Shown here in pieces: positions 5,133 through 29,032 of a stretch of 31,454 nt of DNA; the stretch's first letter is position 1, and every line of letters starts with the position of its first letter. Where the stretch lies: the IMG/VR virus record IMGVR_UViG_3300044533_000741, positions 1 to 31,454 of that record; one strand, given 5' to 3'. Both the position numbers and the translations under genes were made by a program. The notes under the pieces are model-generated. The model was not told where the DNA came from, made no database searches, and saw only the letters and a program-made list of their open reading frames with translations. This DNA comes from a virus.

Positions 5133-6527
5133 GTGAGCACTACCAGTCCCGGCACGACGGACACCACCTATCAGGCACTCAACCCCGGCAATCGCCGGCG
5201 GTCGGCCACAGCCAAGGTGCGGCTGGAGGATAGTCTTCTCAACGATCGGCGACGCGAGGCCCTCGCAGCCAACGCCCTGGACGTGTGGCGCAATATGGGG
5301 CTGCTGGCGTGGGCCATCCGGCGGACGCTGGACTACTGCTGTTTGTGGGATTTCCAGCCACGGACTGGCGATCGCGGTCTCGATGTGGCGCTCAAGCAAC
5401 TCATGGCCAGAGACACCGAGCCCGAAGCTATCGACACCTACGGGCGCATGGATTGGGACGACATCCGCAGGGTGGCTGAGGCCCAGAAGCTGCTGGCCGG
5501 CGACTGCTTTCTGGTCAAGCAGAGCGACTGGACTTTACAGCTGGTCGAGGGCGCATTCTGTCGGTCGCCAGCCTACGGACGCAACGACCAGAAGCAATGG
5601 ATCAACGGGGCCAAGCTCCGGAACGGTCGGGTGGTTGCGTGGAATTTTGCCGAGGAAGATCCGCTCACAGGGACACGCGGCGACCGCATCATCCGCCAGA
5701 GCAACGTCTGGCAGCACTGCCAGTTTGAGGGCAGGCCAAACCAGATCCGGCCACAGTCTCCAATCGTCGCAGCGCTCAATGAGTTCCGCGACGTCGATGA
5801 GACATTTGATCACATGAGGGCGAAGATCAAGCTGGATCAGCTATTCGGGATTGCATTCAGTCGCAAGCCCGAGGCCGAGGCCTTCGACTCAGACAACGAT
5901 CAGGATGGCTCGCAGGACGCATCGGCGAGGGTGCTTGATTTCGGGCAAGGCCCGGCGGTGTTTGATCTCGACGAAGGCGAGGACGTCAAGGCGATCGAAA
6001 GCGGCAACCCAGCCAGCCAAACGCAAGACTTTTTGAAGCTGTGTCTTCAGATCGCATTGAAGTCGCTGGATCTGCCCTATTCATTCTTCGACGAAAGCTG
6101 GACCAACTACAGCGGCAGCAGAGGCGCGTGGAATCTATTCGAGCGCGCTTGCCACGCCAGACGCAAGACACAGGAACGACTCCACAAGCGGCTGACCCAG
6201 TGGCTGCTGCTGAAATGGGCCTTGCCTGTCGACTTCGGTGGCACGGGCGAGATCAGCCTACCGGGCGGCCAGCTGGTCTCTGATCTGCAGTGGCGATGGG
6301 TGCCGAGGGGCATAGCCTTTTGGAAGCCACAGGAAGAGCTCGACGTGGCACTGCGGTCGGTCGCTGCAGGGCTTCAGTCGATGCAGGACGTGTGCGACAC
6401 ATGGGGATTTGGCGACTATCTGGACAACTGCCGAGAGATCGCCAAGGAGCGCGAGGAGCTCGCATCCCTCGGCTATCTGCAGGCATGGAGCAATGCGGCA
6501 ATGGTGCGACTGGAGGCGGTGCAATGA
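5133..6527 (+). CDS. Portal protein (lambda gpB-like)
   Basis: This 464-residue protein has the length and place of a lambda-type portal, the dodecameric ring through which DNA enters the head and to which connectors bind. Features include the N-terminal RRRSATAKVR, the early LLAWAIRRTLDYCC helix, the AGDCFLVKQ stretch and the SLDLPYSFFDESWTNYSGSRGAWNLFERACHARRK region, typical of the portal core and stem. Start is GTG 5133 behind a near-perfect GGAGGTGAT. The end overlaps the protease start by ATGA. Confidence 0.92.
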   Translation: MSTTSPGTTDTTYQALNPGNRRRSATAKVRLEDSLLNDRRREALAANALDVWRNMGLLAWAIRRTLDYCCLWDFQPRTGDRGLDVALKQLMARDTEPEAIDTYGRMDWDDIRRVAEAQKLLAGDCFLVKQSDWTLQLVEGAFCRSPAYGRNDQKQWINGAKLRNGRVVAWNFAEEDPLTGTRGDRIIRQSNVWQHCQFEGRPNQIRPQSPIVAALNEFRDVDETFDHMRAKIKLDQLFGIAFSRKPEAEAFDSDNDQDGSQDASARVLDFGQGPAVFDLDEGEDVKAIESGNPASQTQDFLKLCLQIALKSLDLPYSFFDESWTNYSGSRGAWNLFERACHARRKTQERLHKRLTQWLLLKWALPVDFGGTGEISLPGGQLVSDLQWRWVPRGIAFWKPQEELDVALRSVAAGLQSMQDVCDTWGFGDYLDNCREIAKEREELASLGYLQAWSNAAMVRLEAVQ

Positions 6528-27738: not shown

Positions 27739-27855
27739 ATGATGTGGGCGGCGGTGTACGAGACTGCCACGCATGAGATTCCCGGCCCAGTGCCGGACAA
27801 GCCCACCCGGAGCAGCTCGTACCTGTTCCGAGGTGGGCTTTTTTATTGCAGGTGA
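27739..27855 (+). CDS. Possible 38-residue ORF across the terminator
   Basis: ATG 27739 follows AGGCGG and reads MMWAAVYETATHEIPGPVPD to TGA 27853-27855. The frame runs through the terminator hairpin, which makes a translated role doubtful. It is recorded because it has a start signal and could modulate terminator folding as a leader peptide would. Confidence 0.2.
   Translation: MMWAAVYETATHEIPGPVPDKPTRSSSYLFRGGLFYCR
27756..27846 (+). terminator. Strong terminator, pseudoknot-capable
   Basis: AAGCCCACC (27799-27807) and GGTGGGCTT (27832-27840) form a 9-bp stem followed by TTTT ATT, giving a six-T run. Inside, CGGA and TCCG extend the stem by four pairs around an unpaired A. GTACGAG at 27756-27762 is complementary to CTCGTAC at 27816-27822 in the loop, so a pseudoknot or rival fold is possible. 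A small upstream hairpin CCGGC / GCCGG (27782-27796) also occurs. It separates the upstream operon from the replication initiator gene. Confidence 0.8.
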
Positions 27856-27858
27856 GCT

Positions 27859-28842
27859 ATGGCTGGAGACTGGATCAAAATTGAGCACGTGACACCAGAC
27901 AAGCCCGAGGTCTGGCAGATCGCAGAGACTCTCGGGATTGACGCTGACGCGGTGGTCGGCAAGCTGGTGCGGATCTGGGTCTGGGCGGACCAGCAGACCA
28001 CAGACGGTAACGCTCGCAGCGTTACAAAAGCGTTACTGGATCGTATCAGCGGCGTTACAGGTTTTGCTGCGGCCATGGTTGAGGCTGGATGGCTGCAGCA
28101 GGCTGAGGGCGGTGTTCAGTTTGTCAATTTTGAGCGACACAACGGCGAAACCGCAAAACAGCGGGCTTTGACGGCCAAACGAGTGCAGAAGCACAGGGCT
28201 GCTGGGGCTGCTGAAACGAAAGTGAAACGCCAGTGTAACGCTGCTGGCGTTACATCACCGTTACCAGAGAAGAGAAGAGAAGAGAAGAACAATAAAACAG
28301 ATATAGAGACACGCACGCACGCACGCGCGATTGACGACTCTGCGGCAGCAGACCCGCCAGTCACTCCAGTGACCACCACCCCGGCGAGCTCAGTCGTCAC
28401 CGATCTCGATGGCCCCGGCGAGCAAATCATCGTGCCGGAGCGGATGCAGCATCCCGACGTCATGGCAGCAGCTCGCAGGTGGTTCCGGCATCTGCAGCAG
28501 AAGGACCCGACGCGGGTGCCACTGCCGTCGAGCCCCCAGCTGCAGGAATGGTGGGCGAGGGCAGGGCGGCTCGGTCCGCAGAGGTTTCTGGAGGCGGTGT
28601 CTTTTTCGGTGTCTCGAGGTTATCTGAATCTGGTTGAGGAGTCTCAGAGTGAGCAGCACGGTCGCACAGGGCAGCAGCCCACAAAAAACGAGCAGCGAGA
28701 AAGCAACAACCGAAACGCCTTCGCGAAGCTCCTCGGTGAGGATTTCGCGGACGCTCATTTTTCTCTGCCATTCCAAGCGGGTGGAGTTCTCGGAGGCGCA
28801 GGCCATGACGTGGGTGACAGCCCTCAGCTGCTTCCCGGTTGA
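27859..28842 (+). CDS. Replication initiator (lambda O-like)
   Basis: This 327-residue protein has a domain (about 1-120) of the kind seen in phage replication initiators: DWIKIEHVTPDKPEVWQIAE, then GKLVRIWVWADQQ and a VNFERHNG close. A charged, low-complexity linker (about 130-185) follows. The C-terminal part (about 195-270) is helical with VMAAARRWFRHL. The gene contains iterons and simple repeats, as lambda O contains its origin. It would bind the iterons and recruit host or phage helicase. The end overlaps the next gene by 38 bases. Confidence 0.75.
   Translation: MAGDWIKIEHVTPDKPEVWQIAETLGIDADAVVGKLVRIWVWADQQTTDGNARSVTKALLDRISGVTGFAAAMVEAGWLQQAEGGVQFVNFERHNGETAKQRALTAKRVQKHRAAGAAETKVKRQCNAAGVTSPLPEKRREEKNNKTDIETRTHARAIDDSAAADPPVTPVTTTPASSVVTDLDGPGEQIIVPERMQHPDVMAAARRWFRHLQQKDPTRVPLPSSPQLQEWWARAGRLGPQRFLEAVSFSVSRGYLNLVEESQSEQHGRTGQQPTKNEQRESNNRNAFAKLLGEDFADAHFSLPFQAGGVLGGAGHDVGDSPQLLPG
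28007..28264 (+). repeat. Iteron cluster AGCGTTAC, probable replication origin
   Basis: Copies of AGCGTTAC or its close variants lie at 28007 (reverse), 28018, 28029 and 28051 (GGCGTTAC), then 28235 (reverse), 28246 (GGCGTTAC) and 28257 (ACCGTTAC). Starts are 11 bases apart or twice that, one helical turn. Each group opens with an inverted copy, giving palindromes at 28007-28025 and 28235-28253. An A-rich stretch follows at 28285-28306. Confidence 0.8.
28266..28289 (+). repeat. AGAGA microsatellite
   Basis: Four AGAGA units (28266-28285) plus AGAA, in the coding linker of the initiator gene. This purine-rich strand borders the A-rich segment and could help duplex opening. Confidence 0.75.
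28311..28326 (+). repeat. ACGC microsatellite
   Basis: Four ACGC units in a row, encoding RTHARA-type residues in the initiator linker. It lies just after the A-rich stretch. Confidence 0.75.
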
Positions 28843-29032
28843 GCTGGTGGAGTATTGCGGGACGATGCTGGCACTGAGCGGCGACCCGTTTCCGCAGTTG
28901 GGGGATCTGGTGATTCGCATTCAGACCGAGCAGAGCAAGCGGTCGACGCAGGTGACACAGGCAGACCCTTCGCGGCCGACGGCGGCCACGGTGAGGGCAG
29001 TGATGAAGGCCATGAATTTGGGAGAGGTGTAA
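28805..29032 (+). CDS. Small protein overlapping the initiator 3' end
   Basis: This 75-residue protein begins MTWVTALSCFPVELVEYCG and continues with DPFPQLGDLVIRIQTEQ. ATG 28805 has GGAGG at 28792-28796. The frame is open upstream, and GTG 28781 would add VEFSEAQA, which looks like a natural continuation of the same helix. A +1 shift from the initiator gene would also fuse the two. The function is unknown. A helicase-loader or accessory role is possible from position. Confidence 0.65.
   Translation: MTWVTALSCFPVELVEYCGTMLALSGDPFPQLGDLVIRIQTEQSKRSTQVTQADPSRPTAATVRAVMKAMNLGEV

Follow-up and report, generated by a model that had tools for sequence, protein, structure and literature searches.

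The window analysed here is the complete IMG/VR record IMGVR_UViG_3300044533_000741, a contig of 31,454 bases. Its upstream genes represent a tailed phage set (terminase, portal, protease, major head protein, tape measure), and the structural genes are followed by genes for a RecE-like exonuclease and a RecT-like annealing protein. The locus under study is the replication initiator gene P0001, in and around which we located the following features:

27859-28842, + strand: replication initiator gene P0001, 327 aa, with matches to PHROG 2509 and PHROG 9474
27859-28215, + strand: codons of the N-terminal winged-helix domain and the following long basic helix, residues 1-119, according to the AlphaFold2 model
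28007-28025: group 1 inverted pair, 19 bp, GTAACGC-TCGCA-GCGTTAC, with half-sites at 28007-28013 (-) and 28019-28025 (+)
28030-28036, + strand: group 1 direct half-site GCGTTAC, 11 bp further and in another reading frame
28052-28058, + strand: group 1 direct half-site GCGTTAC, 22 bp further
28235-28253: group 2 inverted pair, 19 bp, GTAACGC-TGCTG-GCGTTAC, with half-sites at 28235-28241 (-) and 28247-28253 (+)
28258-28264, + strand: final group 2 half-site CCGTTAC, with one mismatch, directly before the purine tract
28266-28289, + strand: all-purine tract of 24 nt with AGAGA pentamers, one base 3' of the last half-site
28266-28315, no strand assigned: putative unwinding element, made up of the purine tract and the A-rich segment, with the lowest calculated duplex stability
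28649-29032, + strand: downstream ORF of 127 aa overlapping the initiator gene, a candidate helicase loader by position only

Just 5' of the initiator gene, at 27799-27846, lies an inverted repeat (AAGCCCACC / GGTGGGCTT) followed by TTTTATT. It is terminator-like and has a 24-nt loop, and was missed by a terminator scan with a loop limit of 8.

That P0001 is a replication initiator gene, as the original prediction had it, is borne out by a profile match of residues 1-217, the N-terminal two thirds, to PHROG 2509 'replication initiation protein' (E=9.9e-61, rounded 1e-60) and by a second match to PHROG 9474 (E=3e-35). Relatives are present in 46 phage records. A Pfam search up to E=10 returned no family, the lambda O family included, and an NCBIfam search returned none either. 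Several relatives carry the name 'DnaT / primosomal protein I'; the DnaT DNA-binding domain PF17948, which is present in the SPN1S relative, is absent from P0001. The N-terminal domain family also occurs fused to unrelated C-terminal domains, for example to DnaT PF17948 in L023 and to Phg_2220_C in L181. In the AlphaFold2 model of P0001 a winged-helix domain is predicted with confidence at the N-terminus (pLDDT mostly 90-98 across residues 11-90). After it come a long basic helix, a linker modelled as disordered and a helical C-terminal part of lower certainty. Comparison of the N-terminal model with the PDB (VIA) gave generic winged helices of the CRP/IclR/MarR type, the top match being of the CRP type (Z 6.4 over 68 residues). 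A Foldseek search with the model yielded nothing significant (best E 0.2), and no solved structure related to P0001 by sequence was found.

The repeated units had been proposed with starts from 28007 to 28257 and with defined strands, and all of them are present. Their core is the 7-base half-site GCGTTAC; the eighth base of the unit given originally, AGCGTTAC, is not constant. Six exact copies occur in the contig, all at 28007-28253 within the ORF 27859-28842, and a seventh unit, CCGTTAC, follows with one mismatch. An inverted copy opens both groups, as had been described, and is the first arm of a 19-bp dyad, GTAACGC-N5-GCGTTAC, after which a direct half-site follows 4 nt on. The 30-nt modules of the two groups are 77% identical. 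Starts 11 or 22 bases apart, the proposed spacing, hold for the direct copies, whereas the arms of the inverted pairs are offset by 12. Within the gene, group 1 falls into the part that encodes the winged-helix domain, and group 2 together with the purine tract into the part that encodes the linker.

Counting against shuffled sequence, which had been suggested as a check, gave six copies where 1.48 were expected, a number reached by 1 of 100 shuffles, and scattered exact copies outside the initiator gene were not found. No other 7-mer of the window is as strongly clustered locally as GCGTTAC, whose Poisson tail is 1.6e-12 compared with 5.7e-9 for the best of 40 Markov resamples. When the gene was shuffled synonymously, with protein and codon usage fixed, none of 20,000 versions reached six copies (mean 1.34).

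For a broader view, we assembled 113 non-redundant genes, including that of the window, from phage records, viral contigs and bacterial genomes. Half-sites number 440 in 89.8 kb of gene and 85 in 401.7 kb of flank, a 23-fold difference in density, while a reversed-pattern control (19 in genes, 103 in flanks) shows no comparable excess. Inside the 113 genes there are 127-128 of the 19-bp inverted pairs, and in most relatives that have one the pair GTAACG-N7-CGTTAC begins at gene nt 149-161. The half-sites cluster at gene nt 140-200 and 320-420, about 190-265 bp apart, one in the codons of the DNA-binding domain and the other in those of the linker, and both clusters are present in 80 of the 113 genes. 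Same-strand spacings fall at 11-12, 22-24, 33-36, 45, 56-57 and 67-68 (resultant 0.925 at 11.2 bp), and distances up to 70 bp are almost without exception multiples of about 11.3 bp; between the two clusters helical phasing is weak. Compared with the closest relative, L007, the window has no change at the 14 third codon positions within half-sites, against 49 of 327 gene-wide. Complete phage genomes do contain GCGTTAC outside the initiator gene, mostly as scattered singles. The exception is phage CP2 (AB720064.1), in which two more paired clusters (5976-5994 and 34142-34172) sit well away from the initiator gene, at or close to the ends of small genes without assigned function.

It is important to note that the motif itself is not the same in all relatives. 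GCGCTAC (L043), GCGTCAC (L168) and GCGTGAC (L161, L163, L171) replace it in several copies each, as does GCGGAC in epsilon15, SPN1S, L181 and L182, and L022 has TGTCAC sites. Most of these variant-motif relatives keep the spacing and the purine tract, and in the epsilon15/SPN1S group the first cluster lies earlier in the gene, at nt 54-85. These data bear on the idea that the repeats are nothing but a repeated protein motif (GNAxxVT, EKRREEK) selected at the protein level. GNA..VT does look conserved, at residues 50-56 of most relatives. However, residues 51, 52 and 55 (N, A and V of GNAxxVT), which hardly vary among genes of the GCGTTAC class, are different in most relatives that use another DNA motif. 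The copies also lie on both strands and in several reading frames, and the synonymous shuffles never reproduced their number. Since all copies change together between relatives while the layout stays constant, repetition at the protein level is contradicted, and we regard this explanation as practically negligible. It is the protein motif that follows the DNA site. Selection thus acts on the GCGTTAC repeats at the DNA level. In the long basic helix, V109 (window 28183-28185) hardly varies among genes of the GCGTTAC class, and almost every relative with a variant motif has another residue there, which makes it a candidate specificity residue of P0001.

The AGAGA repeats and the A-rich stretch that had been noted after the units are located at 28266-28310. 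The purine tract, AGAGAAGAGAAGAGAAGAGAAGAA, begins one base past the last half-site, is the contig's only purine or pyrimidine run of at least 14 nt and is followed by the A-rich stretch. By nearest-neighbour energies the least stable 40-bp, 60-bp and 80-bp stretches of the contig begin at 28268, 28250 and 28232, respectively. The junction is a family trait as well: the longest purine run begins 1-2 nt past a half-site in 63 genes, and a 22-mer of at least 85% purine does so in 78 of 104 genes, compared with 4.2% of random positions. The purine/A-rich tract of the window shows seven changes relative to L007, and in six of them one purine stands in place of another. A GC-skew minimum, the other expected mark of an origin, is absent from the iteron region, the skew being positive along nearly the whole window; yet skew is uninformative here because the main genes are on the + strand and the contig is one-directional, linear and possibly incomplete.

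The inverted pairs could also act in the transcript, as hairpins controlling translation or mRNA stability. GUAACGC-N5-GCGUUAC could form a 7-bp hairpin, and the group 2 region folds better than shuffled sequence (z -3.9), but in the predicted folds the 19-bp pairs do not form hairpins, and many copies are repeated in the same orientation, 11-12 and 22-23 bp apart, and so are unable to pair with one another. We therefore consider hairpins very improbable.

A weightier alternative, though still improbable, is that the sites serve as operators through which the initiator gene regulates itself, a repressor acts or handcuffing control works, with the origin elsewhere. In 15 of 112 relatives, mostly enterobacterial prophages (among them L020, L048, L102, L127, L130, L138, L142, L144, L162 and L164), an extra GTAACG-N7-CGTTAC pair lies 31-104 nt 5' of the start codon, which suggests autoregulation in these relatives. 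The two distant clusters of CP2 and the distance of about 230 bp between group 1 and the putative unwinding element point the same way, and the group 1 cluster might serve regulation instead of belonging to the origin. On the other hand, the window has no GCGTTAC copy upstream of the initiator gene, and group 2 borders directly on the purine-asymmetric segment whose stability is the lowest in the contig. Most relatives likewise have the tract, which an operator does not need.

An origin embedded in its own initiator gene has a well-known counterpart in lambda. There, the O protein binds iterons that are 19-bp imperfect inverted repeats within its own gene (PMC7466680), and an A+T-rich segment beside them, with purines on one strand, is opened by O (PMC5043065). 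Both hallmarks are found in the window, the dyad-symmetric iterons as two 19-bp inverted pairs inside the initiator gene and the weak segment as the adjacent A+T-rich, purine-asymmetric tract. As in the origins of lambda and Stx phages, the putative origin is placed inside the initiator gene, between the codons of the N- and C-terminal domains. The systems differ in that the initiator of the window has no Pfam match to O, its site is GCGTTAC, and a purine pentamer or hexamer repeat forms the putative unwinding element of the family. Lambda has one iteron cluster, whereas the window has two, one of them in the codons of the DNA-binding domain, plus extra direct half-sites; in the literature examined such a bipartite layout is not described for lambda. 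Helically phased initiator sites beside a weak segment are also shared with the iteron plasmid origins of P1, RK2 and R6K.

Closer counterparts are the PHROG 2509-type initiators of TL-2011b, CP2, VW-6S, PAN70 and BUCT554 and YdaU of the Rac prophage in E. coli 442/2. They have in common with the window the N-terminal domain, the half-site, mostly both clusters and the purine-tract junction, but differ in the C-terminal part and probably in host group; close relatives of the window gene occur in planctomycete genomes. Rac of E. coli K-12 carries a known active prophage origin, oriJ (PMC3945230), and K-12, too, has a gene named ydaU at the same place. The K-12 YdaU, however, is a DUF1376 protein whose gene, unlike the window, lacks GCGTTAC. 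As it differs from the matching 442/2 YdaU, oriJ is weakened as a direct precedent. The C-terminal part encoded by K-12 ydaU (L185, 5120-5977) resembles that of 442/2 Rac YdaU, and the gene has TGTTCAAACA-like repeats before an A-rich stretch. The pair suggests that the N-terminal domain and the iterons were swapped as one cassette.

Taken together, the repeats behave as iterons across the 113 relatives, and no other part of the contig is as unstable as the adjoining segment, in support of the original reading, in which the 19-bp inverted pairs, the bipartite layout, the purine-tract junction and the concerted motif change did not yet figure. Going by sequence and structure prediction, the locus is in all likelihood a lambda-type phage replication origin embedded in its own initiator gene, where the initiator would bind the iterons and open the purine/A-rich segment. 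Binding by P0001, melting, helicase loading and the start of replication at this place are inferences. The N-terminal winged-helix domain would bind the GCGTTAC half-sites, probably with a dimer on each 19-bp inverted pair and with cooperative binding to the direct copies in helical phase. The resulting complex would distort the DNA and open the segment at 28266-28310. The initiator may then capture one of the two strands of this segment, and the C-terminal domain together with a downstream protein would recruit a host DnaB-type helicase. A recognisable helicase loader gene was not found in the window. The ORF at 28649-29032 has no PHROG, Pfam or NCBIfam match and a predicted structure of low confidence (pLDDT 52); an equivalent downstream gene is annotated as DnaC- or P-like in several relatives, and by its position the ORF possibly encodes a putative helicase loader or partner.

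More speculatively, the locus could represent a distinct origin class, in which the two iteron clusters would be bridged by a looped initiator complex, the cluster in the DNA-binding-domain codons would dictate GNAxxVT, and the AGAGA-type repeat would be a sequence-specific single-strand loading element resembling the DnaA-trio. We consider this extension rather unlikely. In the open-access literature we found no published description of an origin in this PHROG 2509-type initiator family. The analysis provides a testable origin map for a large group of phages and prophages, most of them lacking annotation, whose hosts are proteobacteria, planctomycetes and verrucomicrobia. The map comprises the half-site, its 19-bp dyad, the phasing, the pair of clusters and the constant junction with the melting element. 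In these replication proteins, the stretches GNAxxVT and EKRREEK would be explicable as the origin translated, and initiator specificity could be mapped with the natural variants in which all sites have changed at once.
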